Virus record (IMG/VR): IMGVR_UViG_3300020470_003168
Location: 1 to 20,750 of that record
Source: a virus
DNA: 20,750 nt
Strand: one strand, 5' to 3'
The notes beneath the pieces were generated by a model. The model saw nothing but the letters and a program-made list of their open reading frames with translations. It was not told where the DNA came from and made no database searches. The first letter of the stretch is position 1, and the number at the start of each line of letters is the position of its first letter. Below are positions 4,375 to 20,750 of this stretch, one piece after another. A program made the position numbers and the translations under genes.

Positions 4375-7300
4375 TTAGTTATTTATCTGTTTTTCAAGAG
4401 CATCTAATCTATCCTCATTCCTTTTCTGAGTTTTCCCAGTTGGTTTCGGATGTGCCATTGATTCTAGAGTATCTACCTTTGCAGATAATTCTTTGACTGC
4501 CTCAATTAATAGTGGTACTAATTTCTCGTACCTTACTGCCTTAAATCCATCATCTCTTGTAGTAGTCACTCCAGGAAGATCAAGTGCTTCAATCTCTTGT
4601 GCGATTACACCAGTATCACCCTTACCTTCATATGGAGATGATCCATTCCAATTAAATGTATTACCACTGATAGAATTAACTTTATCTAGTGCTTTTATAA
4701 TTGGTGAAATGTTATCCTTTAATCTCTTATCAGAAGAAGAATATGCAGTAATATCATTAGTAACCTCTAATTTACCATGAATTTTAGCACCACCTACAAT
4801 ATTAGTATCTGTATTTGGAGCAATCAATTCAAGTCTTATTCCAAGTCCATCTGAACTTTGAGTATTTGGGTAATCTTTTGCATCTGCAATAGTAAAGAAA
4901 TGCAAATCACCAGCATTACCTACTTTGCCATTCCATGATCCACTAATATCCATTTGGATACGAGCATCCATATCACTCATAGTCTCACTAAAATCAATAT
5001 AAGGACCACCCTTTTTAACACTTCCATCTGATCTTACTAATTCAAGTCCACCATCACTACCTAAAATCTCATAATTTTGCTGTTGTTGTGATGTACCAAT
5101 TTTAGTACTGACGTTGTATGATGTAATATTAGTAGCAGTAAGAGTATCACCACTAAATGTTAAGTCTGCATCATCAAATAATTCTCCACCAGATCCAGCA
5201 AAAACAACACGACCTGCAGTTAAACCAGTATCTGTTATAGATCCACTTACATCACCATTTAGTCCACCATTTGCTGCTATAGCACTTGTGAATGTAGAAG
5301 CACCAGTAATATTAAGAGTACCACCAACATATAAGTTTTCACTAATACCAGTACCACCAGTAACTTGAAGAGCACCAGTAGATGTACTATTAGAACCAGA
5401 TCCAGATTTTACTTTTAAATCTTCTTTAAATTGAACTTCATTATTAAATGTAACTGGACCATCAAATTCAGATAATGATGTTTGAGATTTACCACCTTCA
5501 ACAACTAATCTTTCTTTAATAGTAACTTCATCAAATACTACACTCAATCTTGCAGGATCTTCACCAGCAATAGTTGGAATAGGTGTATCAAATGTAATTT
5601 CCTCACCTGTTAGAGCAGATTTCTTCTGGTTTCCAATATAGAAGTCACCTTTATTATTCATACCAGTATAAACAACTGCACCACAACTTCTCTCTTGAGA
5701 TTGTGATAAGAATTCTTCTTCCTCAGTAAGAGTTTTTACCTGAACCTGTGGAAGTGCAGTTGAGTAGTTACCTGGTCCATAACCAAGATATTCAAATGTA
5801 TGACCAGAAGCACGTAAGATAGAAGGTCTATGGAACTCGACTGGAATTGGTCTAATACTCTTAAGTAATACAGCAGCAGATCCGTGATCTTGCTTTTGTG
5901 TTCCTAAAACACCACGAAGAACTTGTATTTTATTACTACCAGACTCTAATAATTGAGAACTCTTAACTCGTACAATTTCATCACCAATTTGTATATAAGA
6001 ACCATATGGGAATCTTTCTATAATACCAGATTTACCATTCAATAAAGTAATAGAACCAATTACATCATCTCTTGTATTATCACCTACAATTCCAGTAGCA
6101 ACTTCATAATTAAATATTTCTGCACCTCTTGAAGAAAGATTTTCATTATCTTTTTGAGAAACAGAATCATTTGCAGACAATCCATGTTTTAGAATCCATC
6201 CATTACTTATATCTTGATTACTTAAAGTAGTTTTAGTCGTAAATACTGTAGGACTTGTAACTGAAGTAACAACAAATTCTCCCTGATTAATATTAGTACT
6301 GTTATTAAATCTAAATTTATTTCCTTTAACTAATCCATGAGGAGTAGTAGATGTAAATGTAGCAGTTCCATCTAATATATCAGCATCTGATTGAATACTA
6401 GGACCAACAATAAAAGCATATTGATCTGGAGTAGGTCTCGTATCTCCTGTTGCTGTTACAATACCAATCTGATTTGTTCCAGGAACTGTAGTCATTCTAT
6501 AATACAAATCACTGGTAGTATCAGATCCAGTAAATTGAATTGTAAGATTTGTATTATTACCTAACTGAGCATCTGTGAGATTGCCTCCACTTGTATTGGC
6601 AGATAAATGACCACCACTACCAGCACCAATACCAATAGTAGCATTAGTATCATAATATCCTTTACCACCAGCAGACCAACCTGAACCAGGATTTGTAATA
6701 GTTACTTTATTAATAACTTGACTTGATACTACAATATCTGCTAATGTTCCTTTCCAAGTATTTAAACCAGAATCAGTAAATATCTTTACATTATAATGTG
6801 TTCCATTTGTATAACCAGAACTACCTGATTGAGGAACACCTGATACCAAACCACCTAAGTTATGATTTCTTTCAAAGGTAATTGTTGAAGAATTAGCACC
6901 ATATGCAATACTATTAATTGTTAAACCAATACCAAGATTTGTATTGAGTTTATCAACTGTTTCTCTTGTTATACTCCTTTCAGGATAGTTAGTTCCAACT
7001 GATCCTAATGGTGCTCTTAATGCAAATGATTTACTTGCTTTTGGATTTTCATTAATATTATCCCTATCAAGTTGTGGGTATAAATTAACAACATTTTGAC
7101 TATACTCTAAATTTGCAAATCCACCCTCATCAGCAGGTAATTTATTATTTGCATTTAATGGGTATGCATGATATATACCATCAGTTTTATCATCTGTATT
7201 ATAATTTGCGAAAATTTCATTTCTATAGAGATATACATTTGATTGCATATCTATTCTTTCAAATCTAGGTAGTGATACATTAAGATCACTAGAAGCAACA

Positions 7301-10089
7301 TTACCTACAAAGAGATTTGTTGCTGCCGCAGCTAATGATCTTCCTGGAACATATGTAAATGACATACTATCAGTAATACCATCTACAGTAAATGTTCCAT
7401 TATATCCAACATTATCAAGACCATCAGTATTTGCTGATGATTTTAAACCTTTAATAACAATCGTATCACCAACATTCAAATTATGTGCTCTATTACCACC
7501 TATAGTTACTTTTTGAGTACTACTATTGTAAGTAGCACTGCGAATATATCTTAAATTTCTAGCATAATCATAATCATTTCTAGTTAAGTCAGTAGTGTCT
7601 GTATCTATAGTAAAATCTTCATCTTTTCTATAACCAGTTCTACTTGATTCCTGCATAATAAATCCATTTTCAGGATTTTTTGCAAGAAGAGTTTCACCTG
7701 GAACTGTTAGTCTTAATTTGTATATTTTATCATCTAATATTCTACTATCACCTATTCTCTTAACGTAAGATGGTTCTGTTTTTACACCTGCACCTTTTAT
7801 ACTATCCAAATAAGCAAAAAGTGTAGCACCTTGAGAGTTCTGATCTGCTTGACTATTAGTTGCAATATACCAATTATTCTTAGTATTATCCCATTGAATA
7901 GGATGTCCAATATCACCAGATTCTTTATCAGTAACTCTACTTAGAATCTTAAGATTTGTTCCTCCAGTAACATCTATTGCTACTCCCAAATCAGCATTAG
8001 ATTTAGAAGACGATAATTCAAATTGTGTTGCACTATATCTATGTACATAATAGATAGTATCTTCTTCAATATTCTCAGGAAGATCTCCATCTTCACTTCT
8101 AAGAAGAACTTTTTCACCAGTTTTAAGTTGATGTGTTCCTGATAATAGTGTAAATTTATTATCAGATGGTGAAGTAACTGAATACTCTTTAACACTTCTA
8201 ACAGTACTGCTTATATAATCAGTAGTTCCATTCCACTCCATCATACTAATATATGCCCATTTTTCAACACCACTGGCATCTTTAACAAATATCTTATCTT
8301 CTTTTTTAGCACCTATACGATAACCTTGAGTCAAAGATGGTGGTTTAATATCTTCACTTGTAAATCCATCAAGATATACTTTTCCATCATTAGACACACC
8401 AGGTCCATCAGTAGCAGCAGAGAATCTCATCCAATCAATTTCTTCTTCAGTCGAAGAAATTGATTTTGGTGTAATAATATGTGTTAGATAACTTGTATCA
8501 TCTTTTTCAAACGCCTCTTTCTTAAATCCTCCAGAAACTAATGCAAATTGTCCAAAGTTAGAGTTGGAGTTTGTAATAGAAGCATCACCACCACTTTCTG
8601 CAGCAAAATGTTTATTATATCCAATAGCAAAAACAGAAACTATCTGAAGAATAGCATCATTAGTAATATTAACGTGTGTTGTTTCCCATCCAGATCTATA
8701 AATTGCCTCAGAATCTAAATGATATATCCTAGAAGGATTAGTTGGTGATGATTCTTGTGCTAATCTAGGTGGTTGAGTTGCTACAATATTAATTCCTTCA
8801 TATGATCTATTTGTTTTATTATATTTTACAAACGCTCTATCATCTTTCTGTAATGAAACACCAGTAAACTGAGCAACAACCATAGATTTAAATCCAGTTG
8901 CTTTATTACCATCAGCGTGCATACCATTCATACCATAAACTGAACGTAATGAACAGTTAAAGATATATGGAGATGCACCATCGACAGTATCAGTTTCAAT
9001 AGTTACTGTAGCACCAGTAACATCGTTTGCTGGAGTTTCTAATCCTGGATTATAATCAGCAAGAGTGTACTTAAATTTCTTAGAATCATCTACAAATGTT
9101 TGTGTAACTATAGCAGATACGTTATAATCCGCTGGATTAACACCATTAATCTTAATAGGAGTTCCTATATCAAGATTATGATCTGTTAAAGTTTCTACAG
9201 TAACTTCATTTGTTGCATATACTCCATCACCTGCTTTAATATTTGTTATGGAAATAGGATCGGAAGCAAATGCACCAACAATTTCATATTCTTGTCTTCT
9301 TGATGCAAATCCTCTTGTACTTGAAGGATACTTATCTTGAATATTTCTTGTAGATGCAGAATCATAAGCTACAGAAAGCTTATGATAATACATATTCAAA
9401 TCATCTATACCTGTAACAGGATGTTTATTTATCCCATCAGCATATTCAAATACAGTTAATTTATGATGAGAGAATGTTGGTCTTTCAACATCAGAATTAT
9501 TAACATAAACCTCACTATTCTCATTGCCATCAAAAATAGAAAACTGCCAGAAATAACATCCACCAGTTATTCTAAAGATAGCAGATTTTGCAGTATCATC
9601 TGTAGGGTTGGGAACATACTTAGGTCTTATCTTCGTCTTTCTTAAGTCTAATCCAACAATAGACGTACCTCTAGGTACAATAACTCCACCATCAACACTA
9701 TTATATTTGTAAAGTATATTATCTGACTGATTTATATCAAAATTAGAATCTAATGTTAAATCAAATATTGATGCATCTACTTGTGCACCTGCAGGTGTCA
9801 ATGCTTTAACACCACTATTATCTAATATTCCATATCCAGGTCTATTATCAATTAAATATTCACCTGGCATTAATAATATAGTAGTTTTCTCTACTAAATC
9901 ATTATTATTTCCTATATTATAAGAAAATCTTGCTGCTTCAATGAGTGCTCTCTGTAGACTTTTAAATGGTCTTGTCTGAGAATTACCTTCATTTGTAATG
10001 TCATCCGTTGAGTCTAAATCACTTGGACTCACATAAAGAATACGACCTTCTACATTCTTTAGGAAATTATCTAGCTTATTCAGTGGCAT
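4375..10089 (-). CDS. Giant tail-spike/fibre-like protein with pectin-lyase-like N-terminus and C-terminal Peptidase_S74 chaperone (1904 aa)
   Basis: The N-terminus (ILYVSPSDLDS, residues 17-27; RPFKSLQRALIEAARF, 40-55; TTILLMPGEY, 69-78; VIVPRGTSIVGLDLRKTKI, 136-154; IFRITGGCYFWQFSIFDG, 171-188) resembles the opening of pectin-lyase-like beta-helices in cyanophage proteins. Four units with an H-x-L-x-x-G core occur near residues 303, 651, 866 and 1250. The C-terminal third carries fibre repeats (FDGPVTFNNEVQFKEDL; LYVGGTLNITGASTF). The end is a Peptidase_S74 intramolecular chaperone: SDKRLKDNI from Ser1786, then GDTGVIAQEIEAL and AVRYEKLVPLLIEAVKEL, followed by a heptad-like tail. In that family the domain drives trimer folding of a beta-helix or fibre and then cuts itself off near the conserved Ser. 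Here that would release about 118 residues. The ATG at 10089 has a weak AGAAG upstream. No polysaccharide-cleaving residues can be assigned by eye, so any enzymatic activity is unproven. Confidence 0.92.
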   Translation of the reverse strand: MPLNKLDNFLKNVEGRILYVSPSDLDSTDDITNEGNSQTRPFKSLQRALIEAARFSYNIGNNNDLVEKTTILLMPGEYLIDNRPGYGILDNSGVKALTPAGAQVDASIFDLTLDSNFDINQSDNILYKYNSVDGGVIVPRGTSIVGLDLRKTKIRPKYVPNPTDDTAKSAIFRITGGCYFWQFSIFDGNENSEVYVNNSDVERPTFSHHKLTVFEYADGINKHPVTGIDDLNMYYHKLSVAYDSASTRNIQDKYPSSTRGFASRRQEYEIVGAFASDPISITNIKAGDGVYATNEVTVETLTDHNLDIGTPIKINGVNPADYNVSAIVTQTFVDDSKKFKYTLADYNPGLETPANDVTGATVTIETDTVDGASPYIFNCSLRSVYGMNGMHADGNKATGFKSMVVAQFTGVSLQKDDRAFVKYNKTNRSYEGINIVATQPPRLAQESSPTNPSRIYHLDSEAIYRSGWETTHVNITNDAILQIVSVFAIGYNKHFAAESGGDASITNSNSNFGQFALVSGGFKKEAFEKDDTSYLTHIITPKSISSTEEEIDWMRFSAATDGPGVSNDGKVYLDGFTSEDIKPPSLTQGYRIGAKKEDKIFVKDASGVEKWAYISMMEWNGTTDYISSTVRSVKEYSVTSPSDNKFTLLSGTHQLKTGEKVLLRSEDGDLPENIEEDTIYYVHRYSATQFELSSSKSNADLGVAIDVTGGTNLKILSRVTDKESGDIGHPIQWDNTKNNWYIATNSQADQNSQGATLFAYLDSIKGAGVKTEPSYVKRIGDSRILDDKIYKLRLTVPGETLLAKNPENGFIMQESSRTGYRKDEDFTIDTDTTDLTRNDYDYARNLRYIRSATYNSSTQKVTIGGNRAHNLNVGDTIVIKGLKSSANTDGLDNVGYNGTFTVDGITDSMSFTYVPGRSLAAAATNLFVGNVASSDLNVSLPRFERIDMQSNVYLYRNEIFANYNTDDKTDGIYHAYPLNANNKLPADEGGFANLEYSQNVVNLYPQLDRDNINENPKASKSFALRAPLGSVGTNYPERSITRETVDKLNTNLGIGLTINSIAYGANSSTITFERNHNLGGLVSGVPQSGSSGYTNGTHYNVKIFTDSGLNTWKGTLADIVVSSQVINKVTITNPGSGWSAGGKGYYDTNATIGIGAGSGGHLSANTSGGNLTDAQLGNNTNLTIQFTGSDTTSDLYYRMTTVPGTNQIGIVTATGDTRPTPDQYAFIVGPSIQSDADILDGTATFTSTTPHGLVKGNKFRFNNSTNINQGEFVVTSVTSPTVFTTKTTLSNQDISNGWILKHGLSANDSVSQKDNENLSSRGAEIFNYEVATGIVGDNTRDDVIGSITLLNGKSGIIERFPYGSYIQIGDEIVRVKSSQLLESGSNKIQVLRGVLGTQKQDHGSAAVLLKSIRPIPVEFHRPSILRASGHTFEYLGYGPGNYSTALPQVQVKTLTEEEEFLSQSQERSCGAVVYTGMNNKGDFYIGNQKKSALTGEEITFDTPIPTIAGEDPARLSVVFDEVTIKERLVVEGGKSQTSLSEFDGPVTFNNEVQFKEDLKVKSGSGSNSTSTGALQVTGGTGISENLYVGGTLNITGASTFTSAIAANGGLNGDVSGSITDTGLTAGRVVFAGSGGELFDDADLTFSGDTLTATNITSYNVSTKIGTSQQQQNYEILGSDGGLELVRSDGSVKKGGPYIDFSETMSDMDARIQMDISGSWNGKVGNAGDLHFFTIADAKDYPNTQSSDGLGIRLELIAPNTDTNIVGGAKIHGKLEVTNDITAYSSSDKRLKDNISPIIKALDKVNSISGNTFNWNGSSPYEGKGDTGVIAQEIEALDLPGVTTTRDDGFKAVRYEKLVPLLIEAVKELSAKVDTLESMAHPKPTGKTQKRNEDRLDALEKQINN
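4380..4387 (-). promoter_or_regulatory. Possible late promoter box GATAAATA before the 710-residue gene
   Basis: GATAAATA lies in the last codons of the 1904-residue gene, 15 bases before the ATG at 4365. It fits the late-box form NATAAATA and is identical to the box at 11183-11190. Support is by motif and position only. Confidence 0.38.
4440..4740 (-). other. Peptidase_S74 self-cleaving chaperone domain within the 1904-residue protein
   Basis: The codons for the last three serines of AYSSSDKRLKDN lie at 4732-4740. The Ser-Asp pair (Ser1786-Asp1787) is the expected self-cleavage site by family analogy. Downstream are GVIAQEIEAL and YEKLVPLLIEAVKEL, both hallmarks of this domain. Presence of the domain is clear by pattern. 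Actual cleavage is inferred. Confidence 0.9.
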
Positions 10090-10145
10090 CGCTGACTTCT
10101 AATCTATTTCTATGATATATTTAGTAAGGCAGAAATTAATAAGTT

Positions 10146-10331
10146 CTATCGAGGTGGTATTGAGTCATATTTTATCTCATCCTCATTCAAAAGATCGGTG
10201 CATACCTTCAATACTCTCATAAATTGGTCTGTATCCTCACATTTTAGGTATTTCTCACACCCTTGATCACTTTTAATCAAGAATGCACGAGAACACAAAT
10301 CAATTACAACACCAAGAACACTCTCGTCCAT
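10146..10331 (-). CDS. Small conserved-looking phage protein of unknown function (61 aa from ATG)
   Basis: The product begins MDESVLGVVIDLCSRAFLIK and ends DEIKYDSIPPR. It is acidic, with three cysteines (CSR, GCEKYLKCE), and its spacing suggests a compact alpha/beta fold. It resembles small orphan proteins in T4-like cyanophage structural regions, but I cannot assign a function. The start is uncertain: an in-frame GTG lies 9 bases upstream at 10340 (product 64 aa). Neither start has a good Shine-Dalgarno. I prefer the ATG because the upstream promoter would place the RNA start near 10348, leaving only about 8 bases before the GTG. The gene has its own consensus sigma-70 promoter, unlike its neighbours, and lies between an assembly-chaperone-like gene and the giant fibre gene. 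It could be a small regulator or accessory protein expressed early, but that is inference. Confidence 0.72.
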   Translation of the reverse strand: MDESVLGVVIDLCSRAFLIKSDQGCEKYLKCEDTDQFMRVLKVCTDLLNEDEIKYDSIPPR

Positions 10332-10354
10332 AGAAGTCACTATAAGTTTTTTTA

Positions 10355-10383
10355 ATTATAGACTATCTATTTTATTTTGTCAA
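10355..10383 (-). promoter_or_regulatory. Consensus sigma-70 type promoter for the small gene
   Basis: Reading the minus strand, TTGACA at 10383-10378 is followed by a 17-base spacer and TATAAT at 10360-10355. This matches the bacterial housekeeping consensus at all 12 hexamer positions with the optimal spacing. Transcription would start near 10348, just before the small gene. Cyanophage early genes commonly use host-type promoters, so early expression is the natural reading. Activity is not shown. Confidence 0.75.
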
Positions 10384-10390
10384 ATTGACG

Positions 10391-10398
10391 CATTTATA
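10391..10398 (-). promoter_or_regulatory. Possible T4-type late promoter box (TATAAATG)
   Basis: The minus strand reads TATAAATG, 7 of 8 matches to the T4 late box TATAAATA. It overlaps the TAA stop of the assembly-chaperone-like gene and lies just upstream of the sigma-70 promoter. If both work, the small gene would have early and late start sites. Such boxes arise easily in AT-rich DNA. Confidence 0.35.
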
Positions 10399-10783
10399 AA
10401 GTAAACATATCTGGCCAAGTAACACTAGTAGGAAATCCTACTTGAGTTGGTACATCAAGTAATGCTTGTCTGTATGCTTTAATCTCATCTTGTTTGGATG
10501 TGCTAATACCTGCCCACCTTAAAGGGTTGGATACAACTCTATCCACTCCATCTTGCAATCTATAGTCTCGTTCCGATCTTATATCTTCTGCCTTTAATGC
10601 ATCCAGTTCAGCAGTAGAAGGTTCATTCCATGCATTAGTAGTAGTATTCCATGTATGAATTCTGGTGGGTCTTACAGGAACTTCAATTGTTCCAGACTCA
10701 TATGCTGCTACTATATCATCACTTGGATCACTTATAGTTTCCCAATATCCAAGAGTGGGATGCCAAAAACCATGATTTGCCAT
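10394..10783 (-). CDS. Tail-fibre assembly-chaperone-like protein (Phage_tail_APC type, 129 aa)
   Basis: The N-terminal part (MANHGFWHPTLGYWETISDP) and the IEVPVRP segment match the opening of small marine phage fibre-associated proteins. Residues about 69-126 fit the phage tail assembly chaperone pattern: an R-x-x-R-D-x-x-L segment (IRSERDYRL), a helical stretch with AYRQALLDVP (103-112), then the ending GFPTSVTWPDMF. Members of this family assist folding or assembly of tail fibres and are usually encoded beside them. Here it directly follows the 2272-residue fibre and the 111-residue protein, which are the likely clients. The ATG at 10783 is preceded by GAGG with about 8 bases of spacing. 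It could alternatively be a minor structural component. Confidence 0.78.
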   Translation of the reverse strand: MANHGFWHPTLGYWETISDPSDDIVAAYESGTIEVPVRPTRIHTWNTTTNAWNEPSTAELDALKAEDIRSERDYRLQDGVDRVVSNPLRWAGISTSKQDEIKAYRQALLDVPTQVGFPTSVTWPDMFTL

Positions 10784-10800: not shown

Positions 10801-11136
10801 TTATGTTTCTGGTGGGGTGCTCAGTTCTGAATAGGTTCTTATCCTATCCATCCAATAATACCATCCATTAGGAACAATTGCACCATTCATTGCCTCAGAG
10901 TGGTCACCACCAGTAGCAACAACCATAACATATGAAGAGGTTGATGGTCCAACATACAATGAAGAACTTGTAAGCATACCAGGTGCTATCTGAATAGGTC
11001 TACCTGTAGTATTTTGATACCATGTACCACTATTCCTACCTGGATTATGCCAAGTTTGACCACCTGTACCTGTATAAGTTCCAACTGCTGTATTAGTCTG
11101 CCAATTATGGTCATTACCAGGAAAATTTATAGGCAT
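10801..11136 (-). CDS. Small fibre-tip-like structural protein (111 aa)
   Basis: The central and C-terminal parts (TWYQNTTGRPIQIAPGM, SSSLYVGPST, GAIVPNGWYYW, IRTYSEL) follow the pattern of a small beta domain found at the C-terminus of many phage tail fibres. That pattern is an N-x-T-G-x-P-I opening, a V-G-x-S centre, an IVP-G-x-x-Y strand and a final W/Y-x-E-L. Here it stands alone as a protein. Its start overlaps the stop of the 2272-residue gene as TAATG, and GGAGGT lies 6 bases upstream, the best ribosome site in the window. Coupling to the giant fibre suggests it may cap or bind that fibre. The domain match is by eye and the partner is inferred. Confidence 0.72.
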   Translation of the reverse strand: MPINFPGNDHNWQTNTAVGTYTGTGGQTWHNPGRNSGTWYQNTTGRPIQIAPGMLTSSSLYVGPSTSSYVMVVATGGDHSEAMNGAIVPNGWYYWMDRIRTYSELSTPPET

Positions 11137-17100: not shown

Positions 17101-17954
17101 AAAATATTAGCACTTCCAGTTGATGTTGAATTATTTTTACCACGACCAGCGGCATATCCACCATAAAAATTACGAGATCCAGTTGTATTACATCTTCCTG
17201 CAGCAATACCTAAGAAAACATTAGCATCTCCGACTTCATCAATAGCAGTTTCATTAGCACCACTAGCACCAGTAGTCTTACAACCAGCATATGCTCCTAC
17301 AAAAATATTATAACAAGTCTTCTCAACAATACCTGTACCAGCACAAGTACCTGCCTTTAAGTTTTTATAAACATCCTCCTTCCAATCACCAGTACCATCC
17401 AGTGCACCACCATTACCTATGAAGCAATTAGCATAAACATAATTCCACTTTTCATCTGCTTTTCCTAAATTATAAATCCCACTACATTCTTTAGGTGGAC
17501 CTACATTTGATCTAAAATATGAGTGATCGTCAGCTGCAGCAGACCCTCTTTTAAAGGTAGCAATTCCTGTATTGTTTAATCCACCACTATTTGCTGGATT
17601 TATAGAAATTACACCTTCAGCACTTTCATTATATAAAACAAATAATTTATCTGCTCCACCATAACTTCTTATAGATCCCTGAAAATTATTTTCTAAACCA
17701 CTTAAATATAATACACCATCCACACCAAGGGATTTACTAATAGGACTAAAAGTTAATCCAATACCAGTATAAAAATCCTCATATTGTCTAGAAGTATGAG
17801 GGTGATTCTCATCTACAAAAGAAAGATAATATAATTTATCTGATGTGGCAAGAGAAGTATCAGTCTGCCCAATAGCAAGTCTATCAGCCTTTCCTATTGC
17901 AGAAACACCTGTCGTATTAACCCATGAACCACCTTTGTATACCTTTATTGCCAT
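11136..17954 (-). CDS. Giant modular tail-fibre protein (2272 aa)
   Basis: The ATG at 17954 (MAIKVYKGGSWVNTTGVSAI) opens a typical fibre N-terminus. Residues about 205-480 hold YadA-head-like units (NVFLGxxAGxxNTTGS form). About 745-870 contains MGLGVNAPLNKLHL fibre repeats. Five ~110-residue cassettes lie at about 880-999, 1017-1134, 1146-1255, 1264-1386 and 1645-1749, each running from a LYMD/LTYNP segment through LSVTGDTTLG to W-x-x-VYA-x-NF-x-G. Three F-x-x-L-x-D-T-P / VRVN units sit between the fourth and fifth cassettes (about 1459-1630). A duplicated module follows (about 1945-2140). The C-terminus, LHLSNE and then GTWGDWTLQEGED and NRTGKKYKMNLTEV, matches the end of known cyanophage fibres. 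No enzyme motif is visible. It is almost certainly a long trimeric host-recognition appendage. Its start lacks a Shine-Dalgarno, being preceded by AAAAAAATTATAGATA. Confidence 0.92.
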   Translation of the reverse strand: MAIKVYKGGSWVNTTGVSAIGKADRLAIGQTDTSLATSDKLYYLSFVDENHPHTSRQYEDFYTGIGLTFSPISKSLGVDGVLYLSGLENNFQGSIRSYGGADKLFVLYNESAEGVISINPANSGGLNNTGIATFKRGSAAADDHSYFRSNVGPPKECSGIYNLGKADEKWNYVYANCFIGNGGALDGTGDWKEDVYKNLKAGTCAGTGIVEKTCYNIFVGAYAGCKTTGASGANETAIDEVGDANVFLGIAAGRCNTTGSRNFYGGYAAGRGKNNSTSTGSANIFIGRSAGQEIDSGSNNTFLGKYAGLNIDSGNNNIILGTCAGFYTSSASQVTTLGVFAGYCNNSGNNGVFLGTYAGRNVTSGAGNVAIGMNALRGEDGTNITGALNVALGLAAGRTLGPSGEVLGQGNVFLGANAAENQTAGDFNIAIGYNVCLANTTSSGQLAIGVADRTWLSGDNNFNIRPGRGIIDCTGSCGTSSQVLTSHKVEGTGGNPDTYYVKWQSNSATATNANALKITENEIANTNTDTHYIWFGNDSTKGNFDGMQIDKDRLVYKEGRVGINTNIVGQELNVFSENFSGIRVKSARIASAPMDTMTQIGGLQFADSDGDVSTYPNGKTMSAIVGTVGGDLILKTGNVATDNGSYDRVTITPVGHVGIGTTNPITDDPNNGKTIKDYLEDNNKVLAVGVVTARDYYGTFRGTIDASADVVTDKIKASDGTYAQVVDGGTDGHFKVLTEGNEKLRLIADGKMGLGVNAPLNKLHLRNSASHPKIRFDRGDNIRNNYIGIEAADALVLAADDDNLGNDSYINFRVDGKDKLHINSIGKIGLGKDVSGTWTIDFGTDNQVLTSKGPNAAAVWQTISGIPASTTNQVKVTKTSSETKLYLTGVKVTDNSEGTTVDKTLYQKTAGTPIQTNLYMDTQNNTLHVNKIRGEVVDATGKTWPEVRGNLVLNGSNFIPDSVPSFDSEGVVNGGQNIGSENYKFANVYAQNFVGHLGGTADSTDKIKIQKNESEDASHYFGMVKGAGDTGSPNNQTVYTDTALTYNPNSDILTSSNIKVTTLLNVEGNTTLGNDANVDTITFTGKVNSSVLPKTDATDKEDVTGLDLGGSGAYWRTIYAREFKGSVVGDAESAQTLDIGTDDDDSDRYLTFVDGNGKGKNVYMDSELKYNPNNDTLTPVNLSVTGDTTLGSSLAGEDPDTTIFNSHVTSHIIPGGTLTSPGDYTSYNLGESNRKWNTVYAENFSGSFTGSIEKIKTNKSENQETTYLTFTTTTPDAENRDSYLLTNPHLYFRSESTNPGEKLTVDCQLDVTGDATFAENVTFGNSGTTDDIVTFNSKVASHIFPSHNAADASDASGKDLGDSNNYWRKVYAKEYAGKFTGTLTSRNIKMTGDVLWDVNFDASANVEAVGTIQPGAVDESMLNITNAPSTDNAGYFLKLVDENGTLTWSQVGAGDGVSLKFTDLKDTPTAYASGAGDKDKLVAVNSAGNALIFTDASSVGTDTYVTGASFVTITGGKQLQLTRNNSEPTLTANLTLSDLGGVNKFLDLTDVTPSTYDGQAHKFVRVNKPNSSGPNENNGSGLEFIDATNFNSDFSFIGLSDTPTGWADNQGDKNKYVRVNDDGNGLVFDTATISAGTVDISIAGDNVTYYPTFVSGTSSGGKTIYQDTNGLTYNPSSNTLTTQDLSVTGNTTLGNSSVDDTVTWNAKSGTILPSGTLDGNNVASGTNLGSADCKWDTIHAKNITGTLTVDTSDKQVLYTSGTDPSVVAGSDTFTWDNSSGVLKVSRNPASEDNWAAITTDGGLEITRTHATDNYKGGAYVDFRDDPDYPAHDYIARIQVATHLAGGEWDLDDRGGLLFETGGTGLRHMLLTDEGTLGITRGDHTNATGASAIVKKSQRTSGFAPGYSRDSDAAGGYNIDGSVALDVDGTILLRANAANPGPGTGALEGGQITFCNSDDKIGYSIDCYGATAGTSLLRIIDEKTPPQPGATRGTQRYAINRSGALGIGDVGNEDWGAAGAVLLSNGETAPPVWSVSSGSVTPPGPIFNSPVTINRQNDASEGGAIILRGPKDNTNYFELDCYRQPNTTETWAFRVVDLKAAKERFKINHYGAFGVGKNDNFGAVGAGLISNGITGQVDWAHVPTNGAWWSTTKNSIPKIGTDGVMEIGRYLDFHGTIDYATTDDGRIDYNGTDFIFDHSIVPTGTINLGSSGARWNNIFVNDLHLSNESKKDEGGNDVDGTWGDWTLQEGEDNIYMINNRTGKKYKMNLTEVD
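11141..11148 (-). promoter_or_regulatory. Strong ribosome-binding site at the TAATG junction
   Basis: The minus strand reads CGGAGGTAGATTAATG: a full GGAGGT lies 6 bases before the ATG at 11136, inside the last codons of the giant fibre. The stop TAA (11138-11136) shares one base with this start, so translation is probably coupled and boosted. Most other genes here have weak sites. Confidence 0.75.
11183..11190 (-). promoter_or_regulatory. Possible late promoter box GATAAATA upstream of the 111-residue gene
   Basis: GATAAATA on the minus strand fits the NATAAATA form of cyanophage late promoters. It lies inside the last codons of the giant fibre, about 47 bases before the 111-residue gene. 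It could add expression of the small tip-like and chaperone-like genes. The same 8-mer occurs inside the 1904-residue gene at 9426-9433, so chance is possible. Confidence 0.35.
11537..12125 (-). repeat. Duplicated C-terminal module in the giant fibre
   Basis: Copy 1 (about 11858-12125) has EGGQITFCN, SIDCYG, LRIIDEK, YAINRSGALGIGD and AVLLSNGETAPPVW. Copy 2 (about 11537-11790) has EGGAIILRG, ELDCYR, FRVVDLK, FKINHYGAFGVGK and AGLISNGITGQVDW. Order and spacing agree, so this is a diverged tandem duplication. Confidence 0.7.
12705..15320 (-). repeat. Five ~110-residue fibre cassettes in the giant fibre
   Basis: Approximate copies lie at 14955-15320, 14550-14905, 14190-14518, 13795-14163 and 12705-13020. 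Each has a Y-L-T-F-like strand, an (L/I)Y-x-D segment, an LTYNP-N/S-x-(D/N)-x-L-T core, L-x-V-x-G-(D/N)-T-T-L-G, and a closing L-G-x-x-x-x-W-x-x-(V/I)-(Y/H)-A-x-(N/E)-(F/Y). Copies 1 and 3 are more diverged. The gap between copies 4 and 5 contains three smaller D-T-P / VRVN repeats. Confidence 0.72.
16520..17340 (-). repeat. YadA-head-like repeat region in the giant fibre
   Basis: About a dozen units of 20-25 residues follow the form N-(V/I)-(F/A)-(L/I)-G-x-x-A-G-x-x, for example NVFLGIAAGRCN, NIFIGRSAGQEI, NNTFLGKYAGLNI, NNIILGTCAGFY, NGVFLGTYAGRNV and NVAIGMNAL. This pattern is known from left-handed beta-rolls in trimeric adhesin heads and phage fibres. Unusually many units carry Cys. Boundaries are approximate. 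Confidence 0.75.
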
Positions 17955-17981: not shown

Positions 17982-20750
17982 CACGATATTCTCATTATAT
18001 ATGCAAGTGCAAAATATGGTGGTAGGTTCTTATCGGTTCCTGCTACACCTTCATTGTTAATAGTGATGCCAGTTGTTGCATATTCTGTTGGTTCATAACC
18101 ATTTACTCCTATTCCTGATTCTTCAATAACACCGTCACCAGAATCACTATTTGAATAAGCAACGTTGTGAAGGTGACCCTGACCATCGTTAGGTTCAGTA
18201 ATACCATGATTATGCTGAACAACAACTGCATCCTTAGAACCACCAGAAGGAGTTAGACTTCCAGTAACATTTGTTTTCCATCCAGAATTATACTGATTGG
18301 CACCAATAATAAATTTATCCCTTAAATCTGGTGCACCAGCACTTACAGCAGCAGCAGAATCATCACACAATATCCAATTTGTCAATGCATCAAGTGCAGT
18401 CTTAGTTCCAGAATACATTATAATACCACCAACTGGAACATCAGACCCTGCAGGTGCTTGATCTTTAACAGCAGTTGCTAAATCTTCTATTGATACTTGA
18501 GTATAAATTTCTGGGGAATTAGGAAAATTTGCAGCAGAACCTAAACCCCAATCAGCTTGAGTATCATGAGACCTATGTTGGATTTTAAAGTAAGTTTTCT
18601 CAGTAATTGTAAGTTGAGTATCTCCAAAAGATCTAGTCTGACTATTTGTACTTATATTTGATGAATCAAATTCACTACTTCCTTGGATATACGTTGCACT
18701 ATTAAAATCACTATTATTTGCATAAACTAATCGAGTTTTATGCATATTTACATTATATGCTGGAGCACTCCATTTTATATTATATGTTCCTGATGGTAAT
18801 GAAAAAGAAACATTATTAGATTCTAAAGTGACAAAATCTTGAGGATCATTTTCTTTATTTAAAGTTCTATCTCTCCAGTCACCTAAGGTAAATGTTCCAC
18901 CATGAGTACCTGAAGTTTTTTCATCCCATAATTCTGCAACCTTAGTCATTCCAGATGTAGAAGAACCTCCTCCTCCACTACCACCATTCTCCTTAACAGC
19001 AGTTTTTAAATCTTCTACAAATATTTGTGTATATATTTCATGGTCACCTATCTGAGATGCCTGACCCCAGTTACCAGCATCCTGATATTGCTGTATTACA
19101 AAATATTCTTTCTGTGTGGTGGTAATAATATAACTACCACAACTATAATAATTAGATTCACCTGGATCGGCAGTATCTGAATATCCTGATTCACCTAATA
19201 TTTCAGTTCGATTAGATGAACCTGAAGGAAATGTTATATCAGTATCATGAACTAATTGAGTCCTTACATTTGCTGCATCATGAGCAGGACATCTCCAATT
19301 TATACGATAAGTTCCTGCTGGTAATGAAAAAATCTGATTAACCATAGTCGCAGGAACATCCGAACCAGTTTCTAAAGTAACCAAACCAGTAGGATCATCT
19401 TTCGTATTTAAAGATCTAGTACGCCAAGCTTGTAATGTATCTGGAGCACCCGCACTATCACTACTAGGTTTTCTATCATATATTCTTGCATGTCTACTAG
19501 TTCCCGATACATAATCATCTCCAGCATTCTTAACAGCAGTTGCCAAATCTTCTACAGATACTTGAGTATAAATCTCAGTAGCACCGCTTATATTTGATGG
19601 TTTACCTAAAACATTAGCATCATTTGTAGTACCACTTCCTATAATCTGAATTCTGATATAAGTAGTTTCCGAAACTGTAATAAGGGCAATACCAGTTGAT
19701 GATTCTTGAGGATTAAGTACACCAGCCTGACTTGGTGCATGTTCTGAAGACCCTAATATTGAAGTTGGACTACTAAAACTACTATTATCATCATACTGTA
19801 ATCGAGATTGAAAATTACCTATCATATAAGCAGGAGTATCCCATTTTATTTCATAACTTCCTGCTGGTACTGCAAAATAAACATGCCCTGAATCTAAAGT
19901 AACAATACCTTTAGGATCTGTTGTGCTATTTAAAGTTCTATTTTTCCAAGTACCCAAGTCACCTGGATTTGAATAAGTTCCTCCACCAGTACCTGTAGTT
20001 TCTGTCTGATATATTTTAGCAACTCTAGTAGTTCCTGTACTATCATTAGCACCAGCAGAAGCAGAAGCACTGGTATCATACCAAATATCACCTTCACAAA
20101 GATTACCAGTAGGTTCAGTATCACCAACATACCTATTACCATAAGCATTACTGGTTGAACCAATACCTATGATTGCAGTATTACCAGAAGTAGCAACAGT
20201 AATAGGTGCATCTAAAGCATCACATGTTCTTACAGTTCTTGGATCACTCTGACTTAAATCATCAGAATATTGTTTAACTTGAACAGAAGCAAGACCTCCT
20301 CCACCACTACCAGATTCATCAGCCCAATAAACACTTGAACCAAATCCACCACTCTTTAATACCTGACCATTTGTTCCATAAATTTGATCAGAAGTTCTTC
20401 CAGTACCTTGAGCATCGATTCCAATTTCTCCTACTTTACCAATACGCAATCTTTCTACAACATCACCACCACTTGATCCACCACCACCTGTATAAAACAT
20501 TAGAGATGAGAAAGTATTATCAGAAGCACGTTGCATCTCAATACGAGCATCAGCATCACTACCACCTGATTTAAAATCAATATATGGTCCTGTAGATGTT
20601 AGATACGCATCATCAGTTCTTTTTAATTCAAGTGCACCATCAGCCGTTAAAGCAGCATAATTCTGAGCTGAAGAGGTAGTTGGAGTTACAGCAGTTTGTG
20701 TACTATCTTTCTCAACTTTTATCCAAGCACCAAGTGGTACAGATGAATTT
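17981..20750 (-). CDS. Short-tail-fibre / tail-collar protein with three tandem jelly-roll-like domains (partial, 5' end beyond window)
   Basis: The frame stays open to the right edge, giving 922 visible residues. An internal ATG at 20536 is unlikely to be the start because clear coding continues upstream (ALTADGALELKR, GPYIDFKSGG). In order: the DGALEL/YIDF module, a GTNGQVLKSGG motif, a VGDTEPTGN / GDIWYD motif, three ~177-residue repeats, and a phage tail-collar domain at the end. The collar shows VPVGGIIMYSGT, LCDD, LRDKFIIGA, a QHNHG motif, H-L-H-N and the ending NLPPYFALAYIMRIS. T4 gp12, the short tail fibre, has a related collar domain where histidines in an H-x-H motif bind metal. By analogy this may be a baseplate-attached receptor-binding fibre. 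Direct equivalence to gp12 is not shown, since the repeats make it much longer than gp12. Confidence 0.88.
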   Translation of the reverse strand, partial: NSSVPLGAWIKVEKDSTQTAVTPTTSSAQNYAALTADGALELKRTDDAYLTSTGPYIDFKSGGSDADARIEMQRASDNTFSSLMFYTGGGGSSGGDVVERLRIGKVGEIGIDAQGTGRTSDQIYGTNGQVLKSGGFGSSVYWADESGSGGGGLASVQVKQYSDDLSQSDPRTVRTCDALDAPITVATSGNTAIIGIGSTSNAYGNRYVGDTEPTGNLCEGDIWYDTSASASAGANDSTGTTRVAKIYQTETTGTGGGTYSNPGDLGTWKNRTLNSTTDPKGIVTLDSGHVYFAVPAGSYEIKWDTPAYMIGNFQSRLQYDDNSSFSSPTSILGSSEHAPSQAGVLNPQESSTGIALITVSETTYIRIQIIGSGTTNDANVLGKPSNISGATEIYTQVSVEDLATAVKNAGDDYVSGTSRHARIYDRKPSSDSAGAPDTLQAWRTRSLNTKDDPTGLVTLETGSDVPATMVNQIFSLPAGTYRINWRCPAHDAANVRTQLVHDTDITFPSGSSNRTEILGESGYSDTADPGESNYYSCGSYIITTTQKEYFVIQQYQDAGNWGQASQIGDHEIYTQIFVEDLKTAVKENGGSGGGGSSTSGMTKVAELWDEKTSGTHGGTFTLGDWRDRTLNKENDPQDFVTLESNNVSFSLPSGTYNIKWSAPAYNVNMHKTRLVYANNSDFNSATYIQGSSEFDSSNISTNSQTRSFGDTQLTITEKTYFKIQHRSHDTQADWGLGSAANFPNSPEIYTQVSIEDLATAVKDQAPAGSDVPVGGIIMYSGTKTALDALTNWILCDDSAAAVSAGAPDLRDKFIIGANQYNSGWKTNVTGSLTPSGGSKDAVVVQHNHGITEPNDGQGHLHNVAYSNSDSGDGVIEESGIGVNGYEPTEYATTGITINNEGVAGTDKNLPPYFALAYIMRIS
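17984..18445 (-). other. Phage tail-collar domain at the end of the collar protein
   Basis: About 150 residues begin at VPVGGIIMYSG and end IMRIS. Visible hallmarks are NWILCDD, PDLRDKFIIGA, VQHNHG with a second H-x-H (GHLHN) about 14 residues later, and LPPYFALAYI. The His motifs are candidates for metal binding by analogy with T4 gp12. Confidence 0.85.
18464..20030 (-). repeat. Three tandem ~177-residue domains in the collar protein
   Basis: Copies lie at about 19529-20030, 18992-19500 and 18464-18950. The ends are spaced 537 and 528 bases apart. Shared elements in order: W-(K/R)-x-R-(T/S)-LN, DP-x-x-(I/L/F)-VTL, (V/L)PAG/PSG-(S/T)-Y-x-I-x-W, a PA-(Y/H) and R/T-(R/Q)-L strand, (I)-(L/Q)-G-(S/E)-S, (F/I)-x-IQ, EIYTQ-(V/I)-x-(V/I)-EDL-(A/K)-TAVK. 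The third copy (FKIQHRSHDTQ, EIYTQ) most resembles a domain common in phage collar proteins. A stretch of about 45 bases at each copy end is also similar at DNA level. Confidence 0.85.

Follow-up and report, generated by a model that had tools for sequence, protein, structure and literature searches.

A conserved host-type promoter for a small DUF7294 gene among the tail-fibre genes of a T4-like cyanophage

A small gene of the DUF7294 family, which lies among the tail-fibre genes of a T4-like cyanophage, appears to have a host-type promoter of its own. The window that we analyzed (the whole stretch of 20,750 bases) is a fragment of such a phage, and its nearest annotated relatives are P-SSM2, S-T4, S-SM2, and others, mostly Kyanoviridae. 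All of the large genes in the window are on the minus strand, and the ones that we tested encode tail fibre or tail proteins. Comparisons with related phages give good support for a genuine host-type promoter at 10383-10355 (minus strand) that serves the DUF7294 gene in particular (Table 1). The first-pass annotation had claimed a host promoter for a small gene amid structural genes, and the conservation of the hexamers and of their spacing agrees with this.

In the account that we favor, and to which we give a probability of about 80%, this is a functional sigma-70/RpoD promoter, the DUF7294 protein is its first product, expression leans towards the middle of the infection, and the fibre gene is served separately. 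The host RNA polymerase, carrying its usual major sigma factor, would recognize 10383-10355. The transcript is predicted to start near 10348, given the position of the -10 hexamer, and its first product would be the 61-aa DUF7294 protein from the ATG at 10331. In many relatives, the same promoter would head a small accessory island, an insertion with the gp5/adhesin module on one side and the giant fibre gene on the other. Expression would precede that of the late structural genes and is more likely to be middle than strictly early. The fibre gene would rely on the late-like box at 10124-10118.

Table 1. Features around the DUF7294 gene in the window.
Feature	Position	Strand	Evidence
Giant tail-fibre gene, 1904 aa, counterpart of T4-GC 30	4375..10089	-	ORF list, family search
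CTAAATA, late-like box of the fibre gene, position kept among relatives	10118..10124	-	
Small gene DUF7294 / phrog_662 / T4-GC 29, 61 aa plus stop	10146..10331	-	Profile matches, purifying selection, confident fold
Predicted short untranslated leader, about 17 nt, without GGTAATCAA	10332..10348	-	Start inferred from the -10
-10 hexamer TATAAT, 17-base spacer to the -35	10355..10360	-	Exact match; kept in relatives
-35 hexamer TTGACA	10378..10383	-	Exact match; kept in relatives
TATAAATG, claimed late box, considered a coincidental match that includes a stop codon	10391..10398	-	Counts, relatives
Upstream 129-aa gene, phage tail assembly chaperone family, within a swapped-in module	10394..10783	-	Family search, homology boundary
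Upstream 111-aa gene without a clear family, same module as the 129-aa gene	10801..11136	-	ORF list, family search

The small gene belongs to a recognizable family. Its product (ATG 10331 to a stop at 10146) matches Pfam PF23966 (DUF7294) with 54.9 bits, as compared to a cutoff of 27, and PHROG 662 with E = 1.5e-10; in P-SSM2, S-SM2, and P-HM2, the gene is labelled T4-GC 29. Profile searches confirmed at least 530 relatives in IMG/VR. We chose the ATG over a GTG start at 10340 (64 aa) because this GTG is GTA in a relative (L004). Members of the same clade differ from the window's copy with dN of 0-0.03 and dS of 0.15-0.31, which indicates purifying selection. The AlphaFold model of the protein is confident (pLDDT 92.7) and has a beta-beta-beta-alpha-beta fold. 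When we searched the PDB with this model, no match had E below 0.08, and the best was the FtsH periplasmic domain, with a TM-score under 0.5. The significant matches among viral structures were all uncharacterized proteins, and the named ones are from cyanophages. Because the model has no convincing solved relative, we set aside predicting a function from the fold.

The gene occupies the position typical of its family, close to the gp5 module and to the fibre gene, but it stands alone: the accessory island that usually accompanies the family is reduced to the DUF7294 gene, flanked by the upstream module and the fibre gene. In many relatives, the island downstream contains a Phd/YefM-like small gene, oxygenases, cpeT, and tRNAs. 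A hot spot with tRNAs near gp5 has been described (PMC3037559), and the island fits it. The Phd/YefM antitoxin-like gene immediately follows the DUF7294 gene in three loci (L052 3189-3362, L053 3201-3371, and L101 3211-3384), with a Pfam E value of about 1e-4, which is under the curated cutoff. The DUF7294 gene is present but unannotated in S-BM3 (L026 2477-2659), where it runs into a tRNA-Gly, and in S-8S55 (L029 2492-2707). No DUF7294 gene is annotated in ACG-2014a in the stretch upstream of the fibre match. Also, gp17 of Syn9 (L151 15325-15537), which is annotated merely as gp17, has a CP12 domain match (Pfam, 36.8 bits, above the cutoff).

The promoter's hexamers are conserved upstream of the DUF7294 gene across relatives. 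Among 78 distinct upstream sequences (counting the window's own), 68 match at 11 or more of the 12 positions (38 with 12/12 and 30 with 11/12), and the 17-base spacing is almost universal in the conserved copies. After clustering so that spacers were less than 75% alike between clusters, 36 of the 43 clusters had a match of at least 11/12. For comparison, 56 of 3,000 random stretches of the loci then in the set reached this level, and that sample may include true sites. Spacers, leaders, and upstream genes have diverged while the hexamers stay: the information content is up to 2 bits at the hexamer positions and below 1 bit at most spacer positions. A distant member of the family, Syn9 gp21, has a 12/12 promoter, and the promoter of the DUF7294 gene in P-HM2 matches at 10/12. 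The first-pass annotation had suggested aligning both hexamers and the 17-base spacing across relatives, and had held that loss of the hexamers in close relatives that keep the gene would count against the promoter. The alignment bore the promoter out, and none of the six closest relatives had lost the hexamers. Overall, the gene is kept without them in 4 of the 43 clusters (P-SSM2, AG-345-F15, P-TIM68, and L016); in L016, no gap remains ahead of the gene.

Many relatives have a further element in the leader. GGTA is found soon after the -10 hexamer in 49 loci, and in 47 of these the distance is exactly 5 bases. In its longer form, the motif is GGTAATCAA, or GGTA(ATCAA). Similar elements are present in L025, L027, L051-L102, and others, and Syn9 (L151) has GGTAACCAA in the same place, just after 18656. 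The window's own clade lacks GGTAATCAA. The distance from GGTA to the ATG varies from 8 to 18, whereas the distance to the -10 is fixed in 47/49 loci, so we rejected a ribosome site. We also rejected GGTAATCAA as a general element of these promoters, as the perfect promoters of other genes that we sampled lacked it. It is rare genome-wide, with 5 sites in 8 genomes, of which 3 are at the DUF7294 gene, and it appears to be nearly confined to this gene.

Could the two hexamers be a chance match in A+T-rich DNA? Weaker sites do look like chance: we found 86 sites that match at 9/12 or better and would expect 100 from shuffled sequences, so there is no excess, and the case depends on the match being both perfect and conserved. 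As had been claimed, the match on the minus strand is exact, with 17 bases between the hexamers. It is the sole 12/12 site in the window, as compared to 0.09 expected from dinucleotide shuffles (9 of 100 shuffles contain one). The claim that no other gap has such a promoter also stands, as the next-best sites (11/12, at 1852-1824 and 1451-1422) both lie within a long ORF. Above all, the hexamers are kept across divergent relatives, even where the spacers are G+C-rich, which already contradicts a chance match; we consider this explanation extremely improbable. A different proposal is that the host-type promoter is real but that control is dual-phase, with additional late expression from a T4-late-like box (TATAAATG, 10398-10391). 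The 8-mer is indeed present, and an overlap of early and late promoters has been suggested at middle genes in RB49 and S-PM2 (PMC2984593). Also, TATAAATG matches the T4-type late promoter (TATAAATA; NATAAATA in S-PM2) at 7 of 8 bases, but the last base departs from NATAAATA, there are 2 copies in the window as compared to 3.2 expected by chance, and the TAA within it terminates the 129-aa gene (10783-10394). TATAAATG is absent from the six closest relatives (L001-L006), and because homology with them starts at 10383, it belongs to the upstream module, which differs. Furthermore, a late start there would give a long leader that runs through the host-type promoter. We rejected TATAAATG as a second promoter: the 8-mer stands, the late box is unsupported, and dual-phase control is very unlikely.

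The fibre gene has its own late-like box, and YTAAATA boxes recur ahead of it in relatives where the fibre gene follows directly; in P-TIM68, TATAAATA precedes the fibre gene. We count the fibre gene's own YTAAATA box in favor of a separate promoter for the DUF7294 gene. We saw no terminator between these two genes in the window, so read-through into the fibre gene is possible. NATAAATA late-type boxes are found elsewhere on the minus strand, at 17981-17974 and 4387-4380, just before genes that start at 17954 and 4365.

Given its conserved host-type promoter, the DUF7294 gene very probably comes on ahead of the surrounding structural genes. The class of promoter, by itself, fits either early or middle expression. 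A scan of 13 cyanophage records gave 72 perfect copies. Each genome has between 1 and 16 of them, all on the same strand within a genome, and the reversed control has none. In S-SM2 and S-SCSM1, where we examined stretches that could be placed, the genes behind the sister promoters are hli, 2OG-Fe(II) oxygenases, tRNAs, and small unknowns, and some of these promoters are inside or overlap other genes. Host-like promoters of Syn9 are said to have been mapped by Doron in 2016 and reportedly drive middle genes, while early genes use a novel element. In P-HM2, auxiliary metabolic genes are expressed only in the middle cluster (PMC5082946). Together, the genes behind the sister promoters, the P-HM2 clusters, and the work reported for Syn9 favor middle expression over a strictly immediate-early role, in which the protein would act in the first minutes of infection, for instance on the host's machinery. 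There is something to be said for immediate-early expression: a perfect consensus requires no phage factor, cyanomyoviruses lack the polymerase modifiers of T4, and sigma-70-like motifs, which a 2010 review treated as early, precede homologs of T4 early genes in S-PM2 and Syn9 (PMC2984593). Because metabolic genes like those behind the sister promoters are middle genes in P-HM2, we consider immediate-early expression possible but unlikely, and middle rather than strictly early expression the more likely timing. If GGTAATCAA is the early element that is reportedly used in Syn9, the argument about timing would shift towards early.

The promoter also coincides with a boundary. In alignments with the six closest relatives, the shared sequence starts precisely at 10383, which is the first base of the -35, and the sequence just upstream differs; here the promoter forms the border of a mosaic junction. 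Across loci, the upstream neighbors vary widely in length and in C-terminal sequence, and the annotated ones include piuC, genes of the gp5 module, and collagen-like proteins. In 26 of 71 loci with a recognizable promoter (L001, L007, L025, L068, and L101, for example), the upstream frame ends at a TGA inside the -35 (tTGAca). Although these sequences are related, so that the counts are not of independent events, they include several unlike gene endings. Syn9 (L151) shows the same arrangement: the gp5-like gene ends at 18631, with its stop at 18629-18631, and the -35 starts at 18628.

In having a host-type promoter where modules are exchanged, the junction is similar to the PeSL (promoter early stem-loop) cassettes of T4-type phages, as presented in PMC4503421. 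PeSL cassettes are dispersed composite repeats in which a stem-loop terminator separates the promoter from the upstream gene; in the window, the promoter is not such a repeat and no stem-loop terminator lies between it and the upstream gene. We did not find an early promoter adjoining a stem-loop terminator: the gap is 10 bases here, elsewhere the stop is inside the -35, and the one terminator-like hairpin in the vicinity (10442-10427) falls within the upstream gene. The closer comparison is with the host-like sigma-70 promoters that were predicted genome-wide in T4-like cyanophages (Sullivan 2010, PMC3037559), which have the same hexamers, spacing, and strand and the same place before small and accessory genes. 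Unlike these, the window's promoter is unusually strongly conserved at one fixed genomic place. It borders a mosaic junction, and the stop of the upstream gene often falls within the -35. We speculate that the -35 doubles as a stop for interchangeable upstream adhesin or accessory genes, and that in many phages GGTAATCAA is a start-site element bound by a regulator that times a small host-interaction protein, but this is a tentative idea that we consider doubtful.

This promoter is another case of the known host-like class of cyanophages; the stop inside its -35 and the start-site element merit a specialist's look. Our predictions allow a specific and cheap test in model phages with existing transcriptomes, at gp21 of Syn9 and PHM2_028 of P-HM2. 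For the cyanophages, the finding means that a widespread gene family has its own strongly conserved promoter, which distinguishes it from the neighboring late fibre genes, and that this promoter marks a clear boundary where tail-fibre and adhesin modules are exchanged.
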